From assembly GCF_003144195.1 (NCBI RefSeq), contig NW_020290153.1, forward strand, positions 1-23,998: 23,998 nucleotides of DNA. Reading direction: 5' to 3'. The position numbers were made by a program, and so were the translations under genes. Each line of letters opens with the position of its first letter. The stretch's first letter is position 1. This document shows, in pieces, positions 1,453 through 17,200 of this stretch. The stretch comes from Ceraceosorus guamensis (lineage: Eukaryota; Basidiomycota; Exobasidiomycetes; Ceraceosorales; Ceraceosoraceae). The notes under the pieces are model-generated. The model ran no database searches, was not told the origin of the DNA, and saw only the letters and a list, made by a program, of their open reading frames with translations.

Positions 1453-1952
1453 TCAGGATCCGATCGGCGAGGTTCCTACTTGCGGCGTCGCCAGTTCCCA
1501 TCCACCGTCAAACGAGTTGAACACCACACAACCCAGGTCTTCGCCAGCGCTGCGAGCGGAAAAGGGCAAAGCAAAATCAGCAAGCTAGCGGGGCGTGAAG
1601 CGTCTCGTTGATCGCACGCACGCGCCCACGCATGCAACCAGTGGAGGCGTTCCGGCAAAAGCAGGAATCGTATTGCCGCTGCTGTTGGCGGCGTCGCCCA
1701 GCGCCTTGCATCGCTGAAACCAAGCTTGTTGCGCCTCGGCGTACGTCCCGGGATACTTGGTAGCCGCTGCGTGCGCGAGAGGGAGCACGTCAATCGTCAA
1801 GCTCTGCGCTGTTGACGGACGGGACAGCACTCACTGCGCGCATTGTGCTTGGCTGCTGGGCAGGCTGGTGCCTGGGCGTGGGCTGCATTTTGAGCCGACG
1901 TCAGACTAGCAAGCAGCGCAACGCACTTGAGAGCGATAGAAATGCGAGACAT
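1453..1952 (-). CDS. Small secreted four-cysteine protein, family member 1 (SSP1)
   Basis: Three exons on the minus strand: 1952-1835, 1766-1622 and 1549-1453, encoding 119 residues. Exon 1 begins with a signal peptide (MSRISIALKCVALLASLTSA) and ends with a CPAAK motif. A phase-1 intron of 68 nt (GTGAGT...GCAG) leads to exon 2 with KYPGTYAEAQQAWFQRCKAL and a C-terminal ACVG. A phase-2 intron of 72 nt leads to exon 3 with DLGCVVF and GGWELATP. Four mature-region cysteines match those of the other members. The exon 2 donor (GTGCGT) is the least certain boundary. I do not recognise the family; secretion outside the cell, with two disulfides, is inferred. It is the most telomere-proximal of three like-oriented copies and converges on the SRPBCC gene, 146 bp away. 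An internal acceptor at about 1804 would leave a 26-nt intron and was rejected. Confidence 0.75.
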
Positions 1953-2035
1953 GGTAGCAGCACACTTGATGAATAGGATGGTGACGCAACGTTGATGGAC
2001 TGGTGCGAGTGTGGGAGGTGTGGGGTGGGGCGTCA

Positions 2036-2052
2036 GAAAGGTCGCGCTTTAT
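2036..2052 (-). promoter_or_regulatory. TATA-like box plus GCGAC element upstream of SSP1
   Basis: On the coding strand the sequence is ATAAAGCGCGACCTTTC, 84 bp upstream of the SSP1 start codon. A TATA-like core is followed directly by GCGAC and a short pyrimidine run. The same arrangement lies upstream of the other copies, which is why I call it a core promoter element rather than chance. Confidence 0.5.
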
Positions 2053-3212
2053 GTTCGAGTCCTCGATAGCCTCGACGAAGCACAGAGGCGGGCAGCAAGA
2101 TCACATCCAGTGTGCAGCTCGACGCTCCACGGCTTGGCGACACGCGCCAAGCGTTACATGAAGCGTCTTGTCTACCCGACACGGCCCGTCAGCAACGCCC
2201 TCTGTCGGCGGGACATTGTGCCTGCTCACCACGGGCCGACAACAACGCCATTCGTCGGCCGACCACCAGCAGCCCCTCTTATTCGAGGGACACTTTGCGA
2301 CGTCAAGCCAGCTGACCGAACGGAAAGGCATGCTTTCGTCTGCGCCTCGCCTTGTCTACCCACTAGGAACCGCCCGCTTACCTCTTCCAAAACACGCCAA
2401 GGTACGATTCGGCAATCGTGCACGTCTGCCCAGCCCAAAGCTATCCGCCACGACGCGCCGCAATGCTCTTCTTCTGCGCACGTCCAGAGGCTGCGGGAAG
2501 AGCGAGGGCCTGACAAGAGTTGGATTGTTGTACTTTGTCGCAGCTACATCATCACAGATGTAGTCGCGACGCCTCGGGTAGGCACCGCTTGCACGTTGTC
2601 AGCTCCGCAGCATGGTGTTTCGAGTGTTGATGGATGCGCAGACGCTGGGAGCGCTAAAGCGTGAAAAATGACGCAAATGGCGCAGACCCCAAGATTCGGA
2701 CCGGCTGGAACCTCGGTTAGCTGGTGTTGCGACCCACGTCAGGCGTAGAGTCGATCGAATAGCAAGTCGGAGAGCAGTGTCTTGCCTTTTCGTGGGCCCA
2801 GCTCAGCCTGCGCTCGTTGGCGGACCTGACTCAATGAAGCGATTGATGACCCCGCTCACGTTCATTCATAAGCACGTGTGTACCTACAACCCGTACTGTG
2901 TCGTATTTACCGCGAGCGTCTACAAACACGAATGCGTGGGAGTCGGCCCAGTCACGTGTGCGTACGTCTTGATCATGGCTACAAGTGCGATGCGCGCACG
3001 GTGGTGTTCACATGATGCTTTTCTTTTGCAAACGAGTCTCGCGATGTGTGCGTGATTCACTTCAAAGTCACGCGTGCGTGGGTCGCGCACAGGCTCTTCA
3101 CGCGGCACACCCACGAATCTTTTGGAAACACAATAGAGCGATTGATACGGTGCAGCGCGGCAGACATCTCATCAAAGTACGCATCTACTATGGCATCGGT
3201 GTCCACCCTGCG
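2053..3212. other. Intergenic DNA between SSP1 and SSP2, partly duplicated
   Basis: No gene supported. The plus strand is open from 2011 to 2664, but the translation has no domain, no clear start context and random-looking composition. At 2349-2402 there is a segment (TTGTCTACCC...CTCTTCCAAA...CACGCCAAGG) that recurs at 4131-4194 with about a ten-base length difference, so this intergenic DNA was duplicated together with the SSP genes. A short degenerate repeat containing GTCGGC lies at about 2175-2265. From 2700 to 3212 I see nothing beyond AC/GT-rich unique DNA. Confidence 0.5.
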
Positions 3213-3703
3213 TCACGGACCTGAGGACGACCCGCCGCTTGTTTGTTTGGCGACGTAATCCGTCGGCGGGGTTGCCAGCTCCCAACCGCTGCCTAGCTTC
3301 TCGAGGACGGTGCATCCATAGTCAGTCCCCGCGCTGTCCACAAAAGCGAGATCAGCGACAGACCTGCTCGACAATGTCTTGCACCATGACCACACTTACC
3401 CAATGTTGTTGCATGCAGCCTGATCTCCCTCAAAGTAAGCACCAATCGTATTCTGATCGCCGTCCAGTCCTTGACAGGTCAGTATCCAATGTAATCTCGC
3501 TTTGGTGTGATCTCCAGGGAATTTTTTGACGACTGCGTGCGCGAAGCGAGGGCATCAGCAGAGTCCTACGTGTCGCCGTCAGCCCACTCACTACGAAGAC
3601 CTCTGACAGAGTCTGGGCATTTTGTCTTTGTCTCGATCGCTGCCGCGACCGCTTGACCAGCAAGCACAGCGAGACATAGGAGAGCGATGGGCAGGCGAGC
3701 CAT
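3213..3703 (-). CDS. Small secreted four-cysteine protein, family member 2 (SSP2)
   Basis: Three exons on the minus strand: 3703-3592, 3532-3400 and 3333-3213, encoding 121 residues. The signal peptide is MARLPIALLCLAVLAGQAVA. Exon 1 ends in CPDSVRGLR with a phase-1 donor (A|GTGAGT). Exon 2 carries VKKFPGDHTKARLHWILTC and ends CNNI before a GTAAGT donor in phase 2. Exon 3 contains GTDYGCTVLEKLGSGWELAT, then a Ser/Gly-rich tail ending SSSGP. Introns are 59 and 66 nt. It is closest to SSP3: exon 3 is nearly the same over the YGC(T/Q)VLEKLGSGWELATP segment, but the C-terminal tails differ completely. Role unknown; extracellular location is inferred from the signal peptide and absence of other membrane segments. 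Confidence 0.8.
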
Positions 3704-3845
3704 TGTTGTACAAGGGGAAGCTTCGTCGGTCTTGGAGTATGTTGATCGGGCTGTGTGGCACGCGTCCTCTGCACGAATGCTGTGGAGCTTTGGTCAGCTT
3801 GAAAGAGCCTGAGATTCGTGGTGAAAGCAATGGAACGACTTTGTT

Positions 3846-3862
3846 GAACGTCGCTCTTTAAA
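3846..3862 (-). promoter_or_regulatory. TATA-like box plus GCGAC element upstream of SSP2
   Basis: The coding strand reads TTTAAAGAGCGACGTTC, 143 bp before the SSP2 start codon. The order (TATA-like core, GCGAC, then TTC) matches the element upstream of SSP1 and SSP3. Confidence 0.5.
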
Positions 3863-4648
3863 CTTTTGCCCTGCTACTCTCGGTGAGTACCACAGAAAAC
3901 GTCGGGTAAGCCTGTAGAGCAACGTGCAGGCTATATGCTCACCGCACACGAGATCTGGCCCAGTAGTCAGATAGCTGTGTTGTCTGCGCCGGTCAAGGCG
4001 TGAGCACCGCCTTTCCACGGACGCCAAAGCGCGGAAAGACGCATCTCTACGCGAAGGCGCCAGCGTGCGAGGCGAGAAGGGAGCTTGATTGTTCACGTTG
4101 CGCCCCCAGCGGCGCTACCAACACCTTTGCGCCATTGTCTACCCACCGGGGACCGCCATCAACTCCCGTTTACCTCTTCCAAATCACGCCAAGGCACACA
4201 GCTTGCACTCGCGTCAGCCTGCAGAAGCCTCAAGAAACCACGATCTGGAAGCGGTCGGGCAGTTCATGCTCTGCAAATATGCACATGGCCCAAGTGCTAC
4301 GGAGAGAAAAAGCGCGAGCCACCATGCCAGTCTCGCACGCCTCTCAGCAAACACTTCGCACAATTGTCGACCCGTATGGTGAGCGAAACAAAAGCCAATC
4401 TGTTTTTGCAGTCATGGTTGCGCTTGGGCTAGCTCAATCGCATGTCTGCAAAGCGTGGCCACTAATACTCCTCACAATCGCTGCACGCATCAAGGGGAGC
4501 CCACTGGATGCAGATCGTGTGAATGCCTTTGCCCCCAATGGCGCGTGGGGCAGTGTGCGCATCTTGTACACGGGCAGATTGTTGAGGGAGCGTCAAGGAT
4601 GGGCAACGGTAGCCAAGCAACATATCCTAGGATAAAGACTTTCTTCAA
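3863..4648. other. Intergenic DNA between SSP2 and SSP3
   Basis: No gene supported. The segment at 4131-4194 is the second copy of the one at 2349-2402. A weaker echo (CACAATTGTCGACCCGTATGG) lies at about 4361-4380. Open frames on the plus strand between 4000 and 4635 have no motif, and they change frame preference every hundred bases or so. I read this as the spacer of a tandem duplication, now diverged. Confidence 0.5.
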
Positions 4649-4755
4649 TTCGCTCTACACGACATTTCGAGTGACGAGATTGTGCCAACTGCATTGAAAC
4701 CGCGAGCATTTCGCTCTACACGGCATTTCGAGTGACGAGATTGTGCCAACTACAT
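4649..4755. repeat. Two-copy direct repeat just 3' of SSP3
   Basis: A 46-bp unit beginning TTCGCTCTACAC and ending GTGCCAACTGCAT occurs at 4649-4694 and again at 4710-4755, a period of 61 bp, with only about two differences. The second copy abuts the SSP3 stop codon, so both units lie in its 3' untranslated or terminator region. The near identity implies a recent local duplication. Confidence 0.9.
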
Positions 4756-5260
4756 CTAAATCTTCTCACGGCCAATGATGACCACTTCCCCGTGCTGTGC
4801 ACCGAACTCGGGTAAAGTGGACTTGCCGGACGGCGTCGCCAGCTCCCATCCGCTACCTAGCTTCTCGAGTACTTGACATCCATAATCCACGCCCTCACTG
4901 TGGTAGCGAACGCGCCACGTCAACACTGTCGCGCCCACGAGTGTCGTGTCGTTTGTCGCGAGACTCACTCCGTATTGCATCCTGCTTCTGTGGGCGTTCC
5001 TTCGTAGTAAGGAAAGAGGGTCACCCCACTATGGGGGAGCGCCTTGCAAGTCTGGATCCAAGCCTGCTTTGCCACGTAAAAGTCGCCAGGATACTTCTTG
5101 ACGACTGTGCGCGCGGGTCCATCAGACGTGCCTACAACCTTTGCGCAGCGCGTTTGTACTCACTCCGTACCTGATCTTTGGCGGCCGGGCAGGTCGCGGC
5201 CGTCACAGCTTGACTAGCAAGCAGAGCTAGGCACAGGAGGGCGATGTAGAGGCGTACCAT
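4756..5260 (-). CDS. Small secreted four-cysteine protein, family member 3 (SSP3)
   Basis: Three exons on the minus strand: 5260-5164, 5104-4969 and 4897-4756, encoding 124 residues. The signal peptide is MVRLYIALLCLALLASQAVT, followed by AATCPAAKDQVR and a phase-1 donor. Exon 2 has IVKKYPGDFYVAKQAWIQTC, then EGTPTEAGCNT and a phase-2 GTGAGT donor. Exon 3 has GVDYGCQVLEKLGSGWELAT and a tail with GEVVIIGREKI. Introns are 59 and 71 nt. Four conserved cysteines lie at CP, TC, GC and YGC. SSP2 and SSP3 are the most similar pair in the cluster. A small secreted role (effector-like or surface protein) is inference only; I know of no named family that it matches. Confidence 0.8.
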
Positions 5261-5373
5261 GTCGCAGTGGATTAGACTTGTGCGTGCGTAGGATTGTGCT
5301 TTGGACCGTGGTCTTTTGGTGCGGAGCCGAGTGTTTCTGAAGGTGCAGCGTGGCGAGTCAAGCGATAGACTAC

Positions 5374-5392
5374 GAAATGTCGCCCTCTTAAG
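5374..5392 (-). promoter_or_regulatory. TATA-like box plus GCGAC element upstream of SSP3
   Basis: The coding strand reads CTTAAGAGGGCGACATTTC, 114 bp before the SSP3 start codon. It matches the SSP1 and SSP2 elements in order and spacing: TTAA core, then GCGAC, then TTTC. Confidence 0.5.
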
Positions 5393-5458
5393 CTGCTTCC
5401 TTGCTGGCGCGAGCGCAGGGCGTCGCACAATGCCTGTCCGCGACTGTTCGAGGAGATT

Positions 5459-5776
5459 TTGGGGGGAGAGTGCCAAAAGGCGGCTTGTCTTCGTCAAGTG
5501 GAGCGTCCCGAGGACTTTATTGTTCGAGTTCAGGGCGCGCCAAGGGCCGTGCTCGCGCTCTCGCTGGGCGCGCCGCTCCCAAAGGAGCCAGCCGACTCGA
5601 AACATGCGCAGCCTCTTGTCCGTGCAATCGAACGCACACTTGTCTCCAAAACACCAAAGAATTGTATCGACCTCGGAGAAGACGGGGAGGGAGCCTGGTG
5701 TTGCGCCGAGATACGCGAGGTTCCGCGCGTCTACTTCCACGCCGACTCGGTGCCAGACGAATCCGTCGCAAAGTGA
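5459..5776 (+). other. Unrecognised coding-like open frame (possible exon or gene relic)
   Basis: This plus-strand frame has fungal-looking codon use (C/G third positions) and a balanced composition, for example IERTLVSKTPKNCIDLGEDG and WCCAEIREVPRVYFHADSVP, and ends in a stop after DESVAK. It has no in-frame ATG, so it could only be an internal or last exon, or a relic. The minus strand over the same bases is also open (about 5300-5875), so chance is possible in a GC-rich region. I cannot assign a family. Confidence 0.2.
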
Positions 5777-6267
5777 TAGATAGCATGCGCAAGATGAACG
5801 TTCACAACAGACGCGAGAAGCGCTGCGCGGAGGATCAACAGGGTCAAGACGAATGCGACGCGGGCGTGCAGACATTTGCTGGAGCAGAGTTGACTTGCCG
5901 TGTCAGCAATCCTCTGCGCAGATCAAAACACCATGCCGGTCCTTCCGACGGGGCTGCGGAGCGTCCGCGGAGTGTGCTCGAGCTAGACGGGCGCTCCTGC
6001 TAGGATTGGCGCTGGACGCGCACACGAGCCGTGATTAGCGCGACCGCGGATCGACGTGGTGCGTTGAATCGGATTTCGTCACGCGCGCACCACGGGCCTG
6101 TTGGAGAGCCGTGAGATGAGTGATCTTGTTGACCGTTTGAAAGGTGCTGACACGAAGCATGAGCATCTGCCGCTCCCGAGTAGAGCGTATTTTGATGTTT
6201 GCGAGTGTGTTGTTGCGCGTCGCGCAGAGCATGGGCCTTCGGGCATTTCGCGGAGACCACTCGTGGA
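5777..6267. other. Spacer between SSP3 and SSP4
   Basis: The left part (5777-6000) is open on the minus strand and encodes a hydrophobic stretch without an in-frame ATG, so I do not call a gene. The right part holds the SSP4 promoter. No repeat, RNA gene or mobile-element signature was seen. Confidence 0.4.
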
Positions 6268-6283
6268 TATATAAGACGACCCC
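6268..6283 (+). promoter_or_regulatory. TATA box plus GACGAC element upstream of SSP4
   Basis: TATATAAGACGACCCC lies 63 bp before the SSP4 start codon. It is a canonical TATA box in fungal spacing, followed by ACGACC, which resembles the GCGAC element after the TATA-like core of SSP1-SSP3. Confidence 0.6.
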
Positions 6284-6345
6284 AGCGTTCGTGCCCCTCA
6301 CTGCAATAGGAAGCACCCATCTCGAATCTTGAACTACAAACCAAC

Positions 6346-6819
6346 ATGTTGCGACTTGCTCATTTCCTCCTCTTCTTGACCGCCTTCTCCGCCTTTGCAT
6401 TGGTGCTGGCCGCCGACTGTCCAGATGCCGACGACGGAGGCTGGCGCGGTGAGAATGAGGACATGGGCGCCGGCGCATCGTGCCGTCTCTGCTCCGTGGC
6501 GGCTCAAGCTGATGATTGCGACTACCTCTCCCTAGAACTTTTCAAGTATCCCGGCAACGTCCAGTCGGCTTTCGGAACTTGGAGTTCAGAGTGCAAGAGC
6601 GTCGCGAATGGTAAACCCGAGACTAGAGGGGACAGCGTGTATGCAGAGGTAGCTTGTCGAGGCCCGTGCGTATGCAGGAGATCATCATTGTGCTCACGAG
6701 CGCTCGACTGACGACAGATTCCTCCGACTCCACGCAGCACCGGTCTGGATCTGGGATGCACAGTCTACTCCTCTCTGGATGCGAAGAATCCCTCTGCGTG
6801 GATCCTGACCACCCCCTGA
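6346..6819 (+). CDS. Small secreted four-cysteine protein, family member 4 (SSP4)
   Basis: Three exons, 6346-6448, 6536-6665 and 6738-6819, encode 104 residues. The signal peptide is MLRLAHFLLFLTAFSAFALV, then AADCPDADDGGWR and a phase-1 intron of 87 nt. Exon 2 has LFKYPGNVQSAFGTWSSECK and ends EVACRG; exon 3 has GLDLGCTVYSSLDAKNPSAW and ILTTP. Both intron phases, the KYPG motif, the W..(x)C spacing, and the GC and (W)xLxTP pattern match SSP1. Intron 1 is a multiple of three and has no stop, so its retention would insert 29 residues, four of them cysteines. The SSP1-like alignment argues for splicing. It is transcribed away from SSP3 and converges on the kinesin fragment. Confidence 0.72.
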
Positions 6820-6907
6820 CACGCATCACACGCGTGAGCAGACTCGAAACCACATCGAATCCTTTCAAGACGACGCGTGTCCCCACGCCTCGCTGTGCTC
6901 TCCGCCG

Positions 6908-7753
6908 TCACCCTGCTACGACACCAACAAGACTGCCAAATTGAAGCGTATTGACGGTCGCTGTGAGCTGCGCAGAAGCTTCCGCCACGTTCAAAATCAT
7001 AAAGGACGTGTCTTGAGGTGCAAGCTCATGCTCAAAGTGCTCTTTCAGCACCATGGTCAAGGGCGAGTTGCGGTACGGGATGCGTGATTGCCTCGAAGCT
7101 CTTGCGCGAATGACCTCTTTGAGGGCGAGCAGGTCCGTATTGATCTGTCGACCTTCCTGACGTTCCAGAGATGTTTGCGGTGCTGCAGCGACGCTCCCAG
7201 TTCCAGTGGTGCTCCCGGTAGTGCTGTATTCTGCCCCAGCTAGATCCACAAAGACAAGCCTGGTACCCGCTACCGGCGCACCGACCGATTGCGCTCGCAT
7301 CTTTGCATTCCCGAGGAGATCCTCGACCGCTCGCTTTGCTGCATCCAGTCTATCCTCGCACCCTGCTTTCTCCGCCTCGGCCACATCGATTCGCTCCTGA
7401 TCAATGGTGTACGCTGGGTTAGGCTTGTAGCCCTTGCCATCCTCGTCGACGATCATTCCACGCATCTGCTCCTCGATGTAGACATCCGTAGCGCGTTTGC
7501 CCACGGGAACCAGTTCGGACTCGCGCTGAATCACGAGCTCCCTCGCAGCGATGAGATCGCGATGCACAATCTCAAATTCCAGAAATGTAACTTGAATTGA
7601 TTCTCCTTTTATTGTTGTGTGCGCGCAGGCAAAGGCCAGTACGGCTGCATATGACGTATAAGTGCCATTTTTGAAATACGGCTCATTTGGCCTGACCACC
7701 AAATTGGGGTACGTCCATATATGCCGTTGTCTCCGAATATCATATGCACTCAT
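6908..7753 (-). pseudogene. Kinesin motor-domain fragment lacking the P-loop
   Basis: An uninterrupted 281-codon frame. Residues 52-67 (SIQVTFLEFEIVHRDL) resemble the kinesin strand FLEIYNExxxDLL. Residues 165-176 (RLVFVDLAGAEY) are switch II. Residues 204-240 (INTDLLALKEVI, IPYRNSPLTMVLKEHF) and 251-274 (FMILNVAEAS, TLQFGSL) are the conserved end of the motor. The ATP-binding GQTGSGKT loop and the N-terminal third are absent, and the switch I NxxSSRSH segment is replaced by a helical, charged insert (about residues 85-160). No neck, stalk or tail follows. It cannot be a working ATPase motor alone. Either it is a host kinesin piece left in the subtelomere, or a divergent derived protein kept open by selection. 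The 288 bp upstream to SSP5 show no missing exons. Confidence 0.7.
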
Positions 7754-7777
7754 CTCCGAATAGAATGCGCCAATTTT

Positions 7778-7827
7778 GAATCACGAATCGTGAATCATGT
7801 GAATCACGTGAATGTGAATCAAGATTT
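7778..7827. repeat. Dispersed GAATC/GTGAAT-rich repeat, copy 1
   Basis: The 19-mer GAATCACGAATCGTGAATC is followed by GAATCACGTGAATGTGAATC. The same 19-mer recurs exactly at 9573-9591 and a related piece lies near 17546. It lies between the kinesin fragment and SSP5 and is not coding. Confidence 0.8.
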
Positions 7828-8041
7828 CACTCAAGATTGAGGAGGAACAGACTCAAGACTCTTGCTGCGGTAAGCACAGCTCACAGGCGGTCCCCGAAGC
7901 AGCGATGGTCACGATCGGGCTGTCGACAGCGGAGATTTGGAGGCTAACAAAAATCTCGAAGAATATGACATTGCGACGGGGGAAGGGGGAGGGGCCAGCA
8001 CGACAAGAGTCGTGAGTGCGCTCTCGCTCGCCTTCACCAGC

Positions 8042-8630
8042 TCAGTAGACTGGGTGAGGAGGCGGCTTGGAGATGCCGTCATGCTGCTGCGGCTCTTCGA
8101 ACGTGGTCATGACCCAGACTGGCTGACCGTTCGCCACGTTTTCGTTGAGCTTAGCGAAAGCCTTGCAAGTGAAATCTCGATCGCTTCTGTGATGGGACAA
8201 AGGGCTTCATAAGAGGGCGTGCCGAAGCGTCTCCGCCCCCAATCAATAGAGGTCACGCACCTGTCTAGACACTTCCAAAAGGGATACACGATGGGCTGCG
8301 CATCCTTATCGCCCATGTCGTGAGGTACCATGGCGCCGCCGGCATCGTAGCAAGCTGTCAAGAGGGTCTGTTCAGAAGCGAAAATGTCCACTCCTGATGG
8401 TCCTTGAACAATGTCTGCGGACGAGGTAGATGCGAATGCGCGCGGTCAGCTTCTTCATTTGACCCCGTGCCCCTCTAAGACTCACTTCTGAAGCCTTGGT
8501 ATCCGGCAGAAGGGCACTGCGGAAGCTCGCCCTTGAGACCCTTTCGCTGCAGTTGAGCTTTCACCTGGTGCGTAGCTGCAAAGCAGGACAGCAAAGCAAT
8601 GAGAGCTGGGAGCTTGCAATGCGCAATCAT
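8042..8630 (-). CDS. Small secreted four-cysteine protein, divergent member 5 (SSP5)
   Basis: Three exons on the minus strand: 8630-8486, 8414-8261 and 8186-8042, encoding 147 residues. The N-terminus MIAHCKLPALIALLSCFAAT is a signal peptide. Exon 1 ends ELPQCPSAGYQGFR with a phase-1 A|GTGAGT donor, as in SSP1-3. Exon 2 contains LLTACYDAGG and ends FWKCLD before a phase-2 GTGCGT donor. Exon 3 has DRDFTCKAFAKLNENVANGQ and VWVMTTFEEP, then a Pro/His-rich tail. Cysteines fall at the four family positions, and the final FTC...VWxxTT echoes SSP4's LGC...AWILTT. KYPG is lost. Introns are 71 and 74 nt. Membership rests on gene structure and cysteine spacing more than on sequence identity. Function unknown; secretion inferred. 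Confidence 0.65.
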
Positions 8631-9889: not shown

Positions 9890-9926
9890 TTGTCCTCCCT
9901 CACCCCCACCCCCACCCCCACCCCCA
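9848..9926. repeat. Poly(C) tract of 42 followed by (CCCCCA) units
   Basis: An unbroken run of 42 C occupies 9848-9889, and four CCCCCA-like units follow at about 9899-9926. It ends 8 bp before the MTR3 start codon, so it would lie in the 5' leader or core promoter. Length should be treated with caution because sequencers miscount such runs. Confidence 0.9.
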
Positions 9927-9934
9927 TCCGCAGC

Positions 9935-11141
9935 ATGGCCGCATCGCTCGATCGTAGGCGTGCCAACGGACCAGAGACGTACGCTCCCCGCTACGTCTCT
10001 TCCTCTCATTTCGACTCTCTGCCCGACTCCTCGGGCGGCGCATCGAGCGGCGCATCAACCTCGACGGCACCCGCTGTCGCGCGCGCATCACCACCGCAGC
10101 AGCAGCAGCAACCATTCTACATCGCCTTGGGCACCTCACCGCAAGCATCGGGATCGAGCTACGTCGAGGCGGACTGTTTGAGGCTTGTATGCGCAGTGTA
10201 CGGACCCAGGCAATCCAAAGGTCGCGCTTACAATGCCAAAGCCGAGCTGAACGTAGAGGCTCGTTATGCACCCTTTGCGTGCGCCTCGGCTGCTGCTGCT
10301 GCTGCTGCTGCTGCTTCTTCTTCGGGATCATCCAGTCATCGTCGCCGCAAGCCGGGAAAGGATGTGGAAGCAGCAGCATTGAGCGCAGCGCTGCAGTCCG
10401 CGCTTCTGCCTAGCATTCGCGTAGAGCTGCTTCCCAAAGCGACGATCGACGTGCACGTCACCGTCATCCAGAGTCCAGCGGCGGCAGGAGGAGGAGGTCA
10501 GAGGTGGGACGATGCGCTTTGTCTACCTTGGGCTAGCATAGCAGCCAGTGCAGCCATAGCGCATGCGGGCATCGAAATGTGGGCATTGGTGGTGGGCTGT
10601 TGCGCAGTGAGTTGCGAGTTGCGAGTTGCGAGTCGCGGGAGCACGAATGTCTGTGTGTCACAGTGTCCCGCGATGGGCATCTCTGACAGGCTCGCCCCTC
10701 CAACCGCGCCAGTCCATTCCTCGCAATCCAGACGTGCCAATCGAGGTGCACCCGCATGGTGACGCGTGTTCACCTCGACAATCCAAAGCCATCGTGACGC
10801 TTAGCACCATGCCGAGTCTTGGAAGCGTGACGGCGATGGAGATTAGCGCCTTGGGAGGAGGTCAAGCGGCCAGCTTGGAAGAGGTGGACAAGGTGAGCGA
10901 GTGGTTGCGAGAGTGCGAGAGTGCGAGAGTGCGAGGGTGCGAGGGTGCGAGAGTGCGAGAGTGCGAGGGTCCGAGGGTCCGAGAGTGCGCCTGCGCGCGC
11001 GAGATGGTCCATCGCTGAGAGGCCCGCACACGCACACATTCGCAGGCCATCGCCATCCTCACAACGACAAACGAGTCGCTACATTTTACAGTCGCGCGGG
11101 CGCTTCAAGAATCGCACTCGGCCAGAGAGGCAGCGCGATAG
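9935..11141 (+). CDS. MTR3: Exosome complex component MTR3 (RNase PH-fold ring subunit)
   Basis: Three exons, 9935-10606, 10713-10892 and 11046-11141, encode 315 residues; all junctions are phase 0. The ATG at 9935 was chosen because sequence before it is poly(C). Residues about 76-110 hold the RNase PH-fold signature GSSYVEAD...VCAVYGPRQS, then LNVEARYAPFA. Later come LLPSIRVELLPKATIDVHVT and ASIAASAAIAHAGIEMWALV, which match the Mtr3/EXOSC6 pattern. Exon 2 gives VTLSTMPSLGSVTAMEI and exon 3 ends with LHFTVARALQE. Mtr3 is one of six RNase PH-like proteins in the catalytically inactive exosome ring, which threads RNA to Rrp44 and Rrp6 in nucleus and cytoplasm. Oddities: poly-Ala and Ser inserts at about 116-140 and a Gly-rich loop. 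The intron 1 acceptor (GCGCCAG) is the weakest boundary. Confidence 0.85.
10905..10988. repeat. Octanucleotide minisatellite in MTR3 intron 2
   Basis: About ten copies of an 8-bp unit, GTGCGAGA or GTGCGAGG (the last two GTCCGAGG/GTCCGAGA), fill most of the 153-nt intron. A 7-bp array (GAGTTGC) also starts intron 1 at about 10610-10632. The repeats carry no spacers, so this is not a CRISPR array. Confidence 0.9.
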
Positions 11142-11206: not shown

Positions 11207-14200
11207 TCAAACGGAATTTCTTCGCGCGCCGACGCCGCGCTTGCGATTGTGATTGTCGGCAGCTTCGGCTTCGAGTGACATGCCGGTGGGGAGAGATCCT
11301 TCCTTTGCCCAGCCGGCCAATGCTGCTCTGCTAGCCTCGTATCCGATTTGTTGCACCTCGTTGAACTGCAATGCGGGCGCGCGTTAGCAAGTCCGTACCA
11401 AGGGTGATCAATTCGCGACCACTTACTCGACCGAATTCCATCTGGACGCGCGCAGAGAGAGCGCATACGTGTCAGCCGCGGTCGTCGCGACGTCGCCACC
11501 GTCGCCACCGCCGCTACTCACCGTTCCGAAACCTTCCACAGGCATGCGTAGGTAGAAGCAACCCGGCGTGCTCTTTGCCTCGTCCAGCGTCTTGACCGAA
11601 GAAACGCTGTCGGGGCGTCGGCGTGAGCATACTCGGTCGCGCCACCGCGAGCATACTTTAGGCACAGTCGCGAATGCCGCACTCACTAGGTCAATCGACC
11701 CTCTGCTCGCACGTAGAGCTCCATTCAGCGCGATCATCGCATCTCGCCATGACACACCACAACTCACGAATATCCGTAATGCTGGGAATATTTCGCGCAT
11801 CGCTCCACGGGTTCCACTTGTTGAGCAGCACCCACCAGCCCGAAAGTGTGTCGCCATAACTGCGCGGCGAAGTATCGTCCTGTCACGCGCGCGCGCGCGC
11901 GGGCGTCAAGTCGTGCACGCCGCACTCGCAGCCCTCTCGGTCACTCACAATGCTTCCAACGTCGACGGCAAACACATCGTGCGCTCCCATGGCCATCATG
12001 ACGCTGACGGGTAGATTGTCCATGTATCCACCATCGACGAGCATGTGTCCATCATCTACCAGCGGCGGAATGAGACCTGCCAAAGTCATGCTTCCTCGAA
12101 TATACCTCCAAGCGTATCCCGTCGTGTGCACCTCCATCCTGCTCCAAGTGATGTTGGTGGTGTTGCAAAAGAAGGGCAGCCACATGTCTTCGATGTGCGT
12201 GTCGGATAGCGCCTCTGTGGTGCGCGCGCGCGTGCGTGCAAGCGTGCGTGCGTGCGTCAGTCAGCTCGTGCAATGCTCTACGCGCACGCACGCACACTCA
12301 CTAAAGACTCCGCGATTGAACTCGTGCCCCGTAGTGTAGCTGACGACGGGATACGTCAAGTCGCTAGCGAAGCGCCACAAGCTAGCCATTCTGCCAGCAA
12401 ACTTCTTGACGCGGCCAAACGTGGTGACCATTTCGGCCTCCTTGGCGTACAGACCGCCCACGAGGCTGCCTATGCTGGTGCCGCCGACCATGTCGATGGG
12501 GATGCCCCTCTCTTCCAGCGCCCTCAAGAAACCTACATGAGCGCACCCTCGTGCACCTCCTCCGCCCAGCACCAAACCTATGCTCTTGCCGCACAATCTT
12601 CGCGCTAGCCGCGCAAAGTCGGAAAAGTGATGAGGACGACCTGGAATAGCGCCGCGAGATTTGCCGCTGTACCGATGCAGGCTCGTCTCGAGTTTCGCCT
12701 TGAGCGTGCGCAGCGCCTTGACAGCTCGCGGATCGCTCGCGGCGCCACTAGCAGTCGAGCCGCCGGCGGAGCGCGTAATGCCTGGCAGCTCGACGTGATG
12801 ATGCGCATGAATCCACGGTCGAGACTGTGGTGGGTGTCGGCGCGAAAACCGTTAGCGCGCGCACACACGCACACACGCGCGCGCTCTCCACTCACCTTGA
12901 GCCACGCTCGCGTAGCGCCTGGCGGGACGCTCCTCTCGGGATGCAACAGCACCAGCTCCTTTCTCGCCGTCGTCTTGATGCCCAGCAAAAGCCTCTCGTA
13001 CTCTCCCATGCTAGGATCGTCTCCAAAGCCGACAAGGAGCACGCAGTCTGCCTGCCTGATGCTGGTCTGAGCCCAAGGAGAGCTGACGGCCGTATCGACG
13101 ACGTACAGCACCAACCTGTACCGCTGTTCCTGCTCGGCCAGCCAACCGGCCAATTTCAGCTTGCCCATGCGGTTGAACGCGTGTCGACCCAGCACGCCCA
13201 TCACGCTGCTCTGATTCAAAAACGCCGTGGGACCTCCAATCGTATCTTCGAAGGCGGCCTGAAGTCGGTTGGCAAAGTTGGTGATGGGCACTTCGCGCGT
13301 GACAGGAACGATGGCGACCGTCTTGAGGTTGAGATTGTTGCGTCCCAAATCGGGCAAGCCGGGAACGGGCGGGGCCGTATGCAGAGCGCCTCGTCCGCCG
13401 CGTTCTCGTTGACTCGAATTCAGCTCTTCGCGCACACGACGCGCAATGATGCGAGACATTTGAATCGTAATCGTCGGATGTCTCATCGAGATGGCATTGA
13501 AAAGCGTCTTGCGTGTGGTGCAAAAAGGTCAGCTGCTATGCAGCGCACGTGCCACGCACGCACGCACGCGCGAACGCACGCATCACGAGGAACCCACTCA
13601 CCATGGGCATTCTTGCCAGCTCGGAATCTCGAATCGCGTGCAACGTCTTGCGTCGCACAGACCGCGTCACGACGTCTAGCTCTCCCACGCTATCTCCCTG
13701 ACCATACTCGCTGATCGAGTCCACTCCCGCTCCACCGCCCCGCTCCGTAATGGCTCTCAATCGACCATTGATGACGACGTAAAAAGAGTCTGACGCTTCG
13801 CCCTCGCGGTAAATCACCTGACCCGCATTGACAGACTCCCATTCTAGTGCCGAGTCGATCTGCAAGACTGTGTGGAGCGCGTGCGAGGGAGAAAGCGCGC
13901 GCAAATGTCAAAAGCGCGTGCGGGGAGTGTCGTCGAGCGAGCGCGAGCGCGAGCGGCGCGCGCGACTCACTTAGCGGACTCAACAAGCTCAAGAGCCGCT
14001 TGCATAGAGTGAGCAGCACGATGGGTCGGCGCTCCATGACCCTACCAAGCGCCTTGGCAGGAAGAACGCCCACGTACGTGTCCGTCTTGGCGCGTATATC
14101 CACGTAGCTTGGCGCACCCAGCAAGCTCGAAAGGTAGCCCGCAATGCCTCCTCTTCCCACGCTAAAGATGGCCCGCTGATCCTTTGGTTTGTCTTCAGGT

Positions 14201-17200
14201 AGACGTACGTGATCCGTCTGCTGCTGCTGCTGCTGCTGCTGCTGGTACTGCTGCTGCTGCTGCGCAGATCGAGCGCGCGCACGTGCACGTGCACCAGATG
14301 CCGTTCCGTCCAGCGCGTTTCCAATGCGATCGGACTGCGCAGGTGCTCCTCGTCCAGCATCTCCCGAGCGCGAGGGTGCAGCTGTCGCCCTAGACGCCGA
14401 CGTGGCGCCGCTTCTCTGCCCATTCAAAGGCGCTGCTCTTCCCGGGAGCTTGGGCTTGGGACCTTGCTGCTTGTTGTCCTGCACACCTTGCGTATCCGCG
14501 TCGTCCGGCGGCACCACGACGTCGAGAAAACCATCAATGACGTAGAACAATCCAGCAGCGGCATCTCCAGCACTGGCGAGCACGCTTCCAGCTGGAAAGA
14601 ACCTCACCTCCACCTCATTCTCCAGCTCGACGTGATGAGGACCCAAAGCGCTGCTGCTCGCGCCCGTCACGCTGCTCTCCTCATCATAAGCCATGGCCGC
14701 ATCGAGCATGCTCAGACTGCTAAAGGCGCTCCTAAAGACGCTCCTCTGAAGCGTGTCTGCCGGATTGATAAACGGACTAGCAGAGAGCGATTGACCTGGA
14801 CTTTCCGTGCCGGGACTCTGTTGCTGCATGAGTCCAATCGATCTAGCAATGCATCCCATCACTGCGTCTTTCAGATTGAAATCCGCCAGCGCGCCAGGCC
14901 CGAAACCACCGGCAAAGGAGCCCGAGTCGCTTCCAGCACTCTCTGCACCCACCGGACTCGCGAGGCGCGCATCCGACAAGGAGCTCAAAGAGAGCATATC
15001 CAAAGTCGTCGCATCCGAGCCTTTGATGGCCGTGCCGCGCGAAGCTGCTCGAGGGCGCGCACTCGTCGAGACGAGGTAGGATAGAGGACTGCCAGGTCTT
15101 CCGCCAACTGTGCCCCCTCCTCCGCCTCCTCCGCCTCCCCCAGCGCCATCCTCGGTGCCTGTCATGCTTAGCAGATCGCCAGGTCCGACGCTGGTTCGAC
15201 TGGTGGGCGTGCGCAGAGGCGGATCGGGATGTCCCCAGGGCGTGCGAGCAGGATCGACCCTTGCCACAGTATTCCTCTTTGGCGTCTTGGCCTTTTCCGT
15301 GCTTTCGCTCGCTCCGCGCCTCCAAGCCGAGCCGCGAAAGTAATCTCCTTCCTCGTCGTGCGGATCATCGCCAGGTGGCGTTGCAGACTCGCCGCCGCTC
15401 GGCATCCTCGCCTGCGCATCGTGCTTTTGAGGCTCGGGTAGGAAGCGCTGTCGAAGACGCTCCATACCTCCTTGCTCGTAAAAGGCGGCAGGCAGCGTAA
15501 AGCACGCGAGCTCATTGATGTGTTTCTCCGTCCTCATCACTTCCCTTGTCAAGCCCAGATACTTGTGAGCCGTGTGGAACGTAACTCGCGAGAGGCGCGT
15601 GAGAATGACTGTGAAGCAAGCGGCCGCCCGTCCGCCCGCGCGCGTCAGTGGACGTGCCCCATTCTACACACGCAAGAAGCTCGCTCGCGCTCACCCTGAA
15701 CAATGTGAGCTGCTGCGTTGGGATACTTTTTGGTCAGTCGCTTGAACGCGTCGGCAGGTATGACTGCCAGAGTCGTATCCGTCACCGCTCTAGCCACCGT
15801 TCCCACGCCTTCGTGATGCATGTAATGGCTCGGCTTTGCGCCCTTTGATTCGAAGCCGCTCAGGATGCTTCCAGGCGTGTGAGGACCATTGCTCGCTTCA
15901 GCAAAGGTGGAATTGGTAGCCGTAGAGTGCGCTCGACCTCGGTCTGCTAATAGTGGTGGCGAAAAGCTGGAAGCGACGCTTGCTCTAGCCTGCGCTCGAG
16001 CAAAATGTGGAAAGGGAGCAGAGGCCTGAGCAGGAGGTAGTAGATCCTGTCCACCCGGCACATCATCGTGAACCGTGCTCGTCTCTTCGTCTTCGTCTCC
16101 TTGCACCACGGTAGCATCATCCGTCCCGCTGCTAGTCTTTCCTCGCCTCTGCCTCGGACTAGCGCGAAGCGCATCGATGCCGTCTAGACGCTCCACGGCC
16201 ACGGACGAGCTCATGGCAGACGGCACGTTGCGCAGCGCTGCAGCGTTGAGCTGCAATTGGTCGCCACTCGGTCGCAAGGGCGGTGCAGCTTCGTCTGACG
16301 GGTGAGATCGATGAGCATTGGTGCGCCTTCGCGGACTATCCGTCGCATGACCCGTGGAATGCGCGCTGGAAGCGTAAGAGCCGGGTGCGCCACCGGCACG
16401 CTGCGTGCCAGCAACATTTACGTCCTCCCCTTCGCCCGTGCCGAAGCCCACCTTGACATCCTCTGTGAACAAGCTGAGAATGGTAAAGAGCGAGCTGAGG
16501 GTGCCTCCATTGGTGACCTCGTTGAGCAGATGATATCCATTGCCCTCATCCTCATCCTCATCCTCCGACCATCCGTTTGCTGCTCTGCGAGACTCGCGGG
16601 CGGGCGGGGTGGGCGCATACACTTGCACCCTGCCGTCGATGACAATGTAAAAGGAAAAGTCCGAGTCGAGGGAGAGCGTATCGCCGGCGATGAGTCTGCG
16701 AGTTTGGAGATGACGCGCCAACTCGTGAAACACCTGGATGAAATTGGCGCGCTCAGAGAGGGACTGGACTGTCTCCGCGCGCAAATCCGACGCCCGCGCT
16801 CCTCCTCCTCCTTCCACCACTCACTGGCTTTTCGAGGAAACCAAATATGCGAATGGCTTGCAAGAACTCGTCGAGATAGTTGCTGAATCCATTTCCCCTA
16901 CCATCATCATCGTCATTGGCTCCCACGTCCGGGTGAAGGTTGAAACCTTCATCCTTTGCGAGCGGCACTTCTCTCAACCTCTCGTACCTATTGAGATGTC
17001 TATACCTCAGCCAGACGAATGCGGCGACAAGACAAGCGAGAAAGAGCAGAGCGAGGCTTGGAAAGTTGAGCTGAAGCGTGAGACTGTAGTGCAGCACGCT
17101 GTAGATGGCGCTGGGAAGGGTGACGGATGCGAAGCGGACAGTGGCGGCTGTGAGGTGAAGCGAAGCTACCAGCACTTGACGCATGCCGTCCAATAGCGCT

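Follow-up and report, generated by a model that had tools for sequence, protein, structure and literature searches.

What is an array of five genes for small, probably secreted cysteine proteins doing beside a chromosome end of a leaf-dwelling fungus? The array lies in contig C158 of Ceraceosorus guamensis (Exobasidiomycetes, Ustilaginomycotina), a stretch of 23,998 bases which we call the window; the whole genome comprises 23.8 Mb in 199 contigs. The window opens with a chromosome end, 15.8 copies of the telomere repeat (TAACCC)n at positions 1 to 95 with 100% matches, and the five-gene cluster thus adjoins a telomere, as an earlier interpretation of the DNA letters (the sequence-only reading) had claimed. 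According to excerpts of PMC11687029, C. guamensis is so far known solely as an asymptomatic leaf epiphyte and Ceraceosorus bombacis is pathogenic on the leaves of Bombax. The answer that we favor, at about even confidence, is that the genes form an old Ceraceosorus-specific tandem array, whose products would be secreted, disulfide-stabilised plait proteins that, by analogy with KP6-like and SIX5-like proteins, bind partners outside the cell on the leaf.

We refer to the five small secreted proteins (SSPs) as SSP1 to SSP5. SSP4 is on the plus strand and the other four genes are on the minus strand. SSP1 (1453..1952, 119 residues) is encoded by exons 1952-1835, 1766-1622, and 1549-1453; SSP2 (3213..3703, 121 residues) by exons 3703-3592, 3532-3400, and 3333-3213; SSP3 (4756..5260, 124 residues) by exons 5260-5164, 5104-4969, and 4897-4756; SSP4 (6346..6819, 104 residues) by exons 6346-6448, 6536-6665, and 6738-6819; and SSP5 (8042..8630, 147 residues) by exons 8630-8486, 8414-8261, and 8186-8042. 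The coordinates, strands, three-exon structure, and intron phases (1, then 2) first proposed were correct for all five genes. Each model has one terminal stop, and the introns, 59 to 87 nucleotides long, begin with GTGAGT, GTGAGA, GTGCGT, or GTAAGT and end with AG. In every gene intron 1 directly follows an Arg codon, and intron 2 splits a codon seven residues ahead of the fourth mature cysteine. A model of SSP2 with a 36-nucleotide intron 2 was rejected; with a 66-nucleotide intron, whose acceptor AG is at 3335-3334, the gene regains the architecture common to the array. Three of the five models (SSP1, SSP3, and SSP5) are letter-identical to proteins deposited for C. guamensis (P0003, P0001, and P0005, respectively), and the splicing adopted for SSP2 and SSP4 agrees with that of their C. 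bombacis orthologs as deposited (P0002 and P0007); as all of these deposited proteins are gene predictions, the agreement is not transcript evidence. The deposited C. guamensis versions of SSP2 (P0008) and SSP4 (P0009) are different gene models, P0009 retaining the 87-nucleotide intron 1. Both look mis-spliced when set against C. bombacis, and we suggest corrections for the two. At the 3' end of SSP3 there is a tandem duplication with 61-nucleotide spacing (4646-4760).

Do the five genes make up one family? The identities to SSP3 were 47% for SSP1, 53% for SSP2, 39% for SSP4, and 21% for SSP5, and a single BLASTP comparison of C. bombacis SSP4 (P0007) with C. guamensis SSP1 (P0003) gave an E-value of 1e-13. 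By these comparisons SSP1 to SSP4 are clear homologs. By sequence alone the membership of SSP5 is doubtful: a profile comparison (hhalign) gave an E-value of 0.0022 with a probability of just 13%. When the mature part of SSP5 was shuffled, the score of the real protein against an SSP1-4 profile was reached 6 times in 3000 shuffles of the C. guamensis protein (6.1 bits) and never in 3000 of the C. bombacis protein (11.4 bits); once the cysteines were held fixed, the counts were 12 and 1 of 3000, the 4-9% of shuffles that returned no score line being counted as below the real score. Since both intron positions of SSP5 coincide with those of SSP1 to SSP4, we took its membership as settled, alongside the profile and shuffle scores, and regard it as a distant, faster-evolving member, so that the proposal of one gene family holds. 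Sequence upstream of SSP1 (2348..2405) is duplicated upstream of SSP2 (4130..4197), with 76% identity over 68 columns (E-value 1.5e-7), and its core, 2382-2402, has only two copies genome-wide with up to two mismatches allowed. This shared DNA is a trace of tandem duplication reaching beyond the coding part.

The sequence-only reading had spoken of an expansion. The array is not recent, as each gene has a one-to-one ortholog in C. bombacis: P0006 (CBOM_06621) for SSP1 with 87% identity, P0002 (CBOM_06620) for SSP2 with 88%, P0004 (CBOM_06619) for SSP3 with 82%, P0007 (CBOM_06618) for SSP4 with 93%, and P0010 (CBOM_06616) for SSP5 with 62%. These identities far exceed those between different SSPs. 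In a tree of the ten proteins the ortholog pairs of SSP1, SSP2, and SSP5 were resolved and those of SSP3 and SSP4 stood at open forks (of seven inner branches three were starred and three open, with a long-branch warning). The C. bombacis orthologs, together with that of a START-like neighbor of the array, are on contigs of equal stated size (903,324 bases), and their locus tags run in the same order as the C. guamensis genes, on the assumption that tags follow gene order. Because C. bombacis has all five orthologs with tags in this order, we place the origin of the array before the split of the two species.

The conservation of the orthologs bears on a rival view, that these proteins are host-specific effectors of the classical sort, held by selection in an arms race with their plant targets; small, probably secreted cysteine proteins in a telomere-adjacent tandem array would fit it. 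The yardstick was the START-like gene (PF10604; 674-1306, plus strand), the gene closest to the telomere, which is 92% identical to its C. bombacis ortholog (169/183) after removal of a likely 72-nucleotide intron (947-1018), chosen by best fit to the ortholog, and 81% identical unspliced. Against this sole yardstick gene, the 82-93% identity of the SSP1 to SSP4 orthologs lies near or modestly below the reference value and argues against a strong arms-race pattern for these four. Only SSP5 is fast-evolving, its mature part being 57% identical between species (70/122) as against 84% for the signal peptide (21/25); this fits the effector explanation and makes SSP5 an exception to a role in general leaf life. 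The SSPs are also present in C. guamensis, a species without known disease. An effector role in this asymptomatic epiphyte is possible, but we consider a classical host-specific family improbable. Since pathogen and epiphyte have both retained the array and SSP1 to SSP4 are fairly conserved, we prefer a role in leaf life in general to one in an arms race with particular hosts.

How would such proteins act? Their N-termini are hydrophobic, with a best 10-residue mean of 2.3-3.5 compared with at most 1.8 further along the chain, and secretion, as first proposed, is likely on this prediction from hydrophobicity alone. The mature domains span about 80-125 residues, the full proteins 104-147. Four mature cysteines, another feature put forward at the outset, were present in 10 of 10 proteins from both species; from SSP1 to SSP5 the spacings were 28, 28, 28, 29, and 31 between the first and second cysteines and 10, 11, 10, 10, and 10 between the third and fourth, and the stretch between the second and third was variable in alignments. 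The four cysteines would be expected to form two disulfides, whose pairing we infer. The WxLxTP end is conserved in alignments of SSP1 to SSP4; SSP4 stops right after it, SSP1 to SSP3 have tails beyond it, and SSP5 keeps the W and part of the motif. Proteins that are small, conserved, and probably secreted could also serve as cell-wall or surface coats without a specific partner. We found no second strongly hydrophobic stretch that might act as an anchor, however, and the model of SSP3 shows a single compact domain rather than low-complexity sequence, so a coat function seems very unlikely to us.

The AlphaFold2 model of SSP3 is a beta-alpha-beta-beta-alpha-beta plait, and that of SSP5, predicted less securely, has the same order of elements, which, for these two, supports the expectation of a shared fold. 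None of the structural matches to the SSP models was significant. The first VIA matches of the SSP3 model were HMA-type domains. Its first Foldseek match was POIA1, an I9 propeptide-type protein, with an E-value of 0.68, tied with unrelated plaits. This match raises the analogy of secreted protease inhibitors of the I9 propeptide kind, in which a ferredoxin-like plait, as modeled for SSP3, is followed at its C-terminus by a tail that inserts into a subtilisin-like protease at the active site; here the WxLxTP end would be the tail. Several observations speak against it: the Foldseek score is weak and shared, the tails of SSP1 to SSP3 extend past the motif that SSP5 retains only in part, and the SSPs scanned gave no match to the Pfam I9 profile. 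The SSPs have conserved cysteines, which, to our knowledge, I9 inhibitors usually lack. We think a protease-inhibitor function quite unlikely.

A different kind of partner is suggested by KP6, which is antifungal; according to excerpts of PMC9632046, KP6-like folds may serve antagonism. The SSPs might likewise act on competing leaf fungi or bacteria, as the KP6 killer protein does, and not on the plant. The predicted order of fold elements in SSP3 is compatible with such an activity, as is retention of the SSPs in both pathogen and asymptomatic epiphyte. On the other hand, the mature C. guamensis proteins are not basic (K+R to D+E counts of 5:6, 10:11, 10:12, 7:11, and 11:14 for SSP1 to SSP5), although C. 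bombacis SSP1 is (7:4); no immunity gene was recognised within the array; and no KP6 entry was among the 50 matches listed per fold search, an absence that does not exclude KP6. We give antagonism of microbes a minor chance. A variant, in which the SSPs are an unnamed Ceraceosorus-specific lineage of KP6-type plaits with antagonism of or signaling towards leaf microbes as their main role and SSP5 as an arms-race member, is likewise a doubtful prospect. In the explanation that we prefer, partner binding outside the cell, the SSPs would be secreted by way of their predicted signal peptides, the cysteines would be oxidised to two disulfides, and the mature domain would fold into a compact plait of four strands and two helices. 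This stable, non-enzymatic scaffold would then bind partner molecules on the leaf surface or within the apoplast, and the paralogs would be specialised for different targets.

Is the family known, and does it extend beyond the window? No SSP matched a Pfam or NCBIfam model above its curated cut-off, in agreement with the sequence-only reading, which had recognised no known family. The weak Pfam matches below these cut-offs were Peptidase_C39_2 with SSP5 (E-value 0.011), DUF5346 with P0002 (0.031), and Trp_oprn_chp with P0006 (0.034); the NCBIfam model STY0301 matched P0002 (0.11) and SSP2 (0.14), scoring 12 bits where the cut-off is 22, over residues 1-42, mostly signal peptide. All were rejected. 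The best match by sequence in the PDB was at chance level (E-value 1). A viral or bacterial origin was also rejected: pattern scans with SSP1 to SSP4 matched 5 and 8 stretches, none of which was confirmed, and the best viral model match had an E-value of 1.1. A literature search with six protein identifiers (five from C. bombacis and one from C. guamensis) found no mention of them in the paper collection searched. When 5.77 billion proteins were searched twice with profiles, the two Ceraceosorus species alone came up (10 matches with E-values up to 1, and 8 with E-values up to 10); as the second search missed the SSP1 pair (P0003 and P0006) found by the first, recall was limited and distant relatives may exist. 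At this sensitivity the family has so far been seen only in Ceraceosorus. The sequence-only reading had offered the cluster as a candidate for an undescribed system; the family is indeed unnamed, but it is no new kind of system, as its proteins are already deposited as hypothetical.

Within the C. guamensis genome, protein searches with all five SSPs and C. bombacis SSP5 revealed no further copies beyond the window at E-values below 0.2. Divergent copies could be missed, because SSP1 to SSP3 found each other but neither SSP4 nor SSP5, which found only themselves. The sole outside matches, on contigs C135 (0.37) and C93 (0.20), lie within open frames of 651 and 401 residues; we judged them chance and, within this sensitivity, rejected a second cluster. 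Telomere repeats occurred on at least 14 other contigs among the matches listed (346 overlapping matches in all), and the same searches, with their limited sensitivity, detected no family copy on these contigs. There is thus no sign of the proposed expansion over chromosome ends, though divergent members could have escaped.

At E-values of 1e-5 or below, the only relative found for the START-like gene was its C. bombacis counterpart. Between SSP4 and SSP5, a kinesin-like open frame (6908-7753, minus strand) retains just the final third of the motor domain (Pfam 222-323/327) and so is a truncated copy; in C. bombacis the tag CBOM_06617 falls at this point of the tag order. A repeat at 7585-7773, which resembles the end of an inverted-repeat element, overlaps the start of this frame and recurs in either orientation on contigs C96 and C23, in stretches 75-95% identical. 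Beyond the array are an RNase PH domain protein (9890-10759, plus strand), probably an exosome subunit, and a region of patatin phospholipase pieces and cyclic-nucleotide-binding domains (11886-16820, minus strand) that looks like a single gene, which we take to be of the NTE1 type.

Two close species, one a leaf pathogen and the other known only as an asymptomatic epiphyte, thus share an intact, conserved array of five secreted orphans, which offers a handle on whether such secreted families serve disease or ordinary leaf life. The smut-lineage fungus Ustilago maydis carries effector genes in clusters of small secreted proteins; no sequence relatives of the SSPs were found outside Ceraceosorus, but the SSPs resemble these in being clustered, small, and predicted to be secreted. 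From KP6-like proteins (KP6, Zt-KP6-1, AvrLm6-like, and SIX5/SIX14) the SSPs differ in that no sequence match was found and in having been seen so far only in Ceraceosorus. They are like them in small size with an N-terminal signal-like segment, a criterion of that family, and, as predicted, in combining two helices with a beta sheet; KP6-like proteins have two to four disulfides, and the SSPs four conserved cysteines from which two may form. Excerpts from one of two papers (PMC9632046, PMC10942635) report that the KP6-like effectors SIX5 and SIX14 resemble HMA domains, as does the SSP3 model. We regard the SSPs as a family not yet named, of a kind already known.
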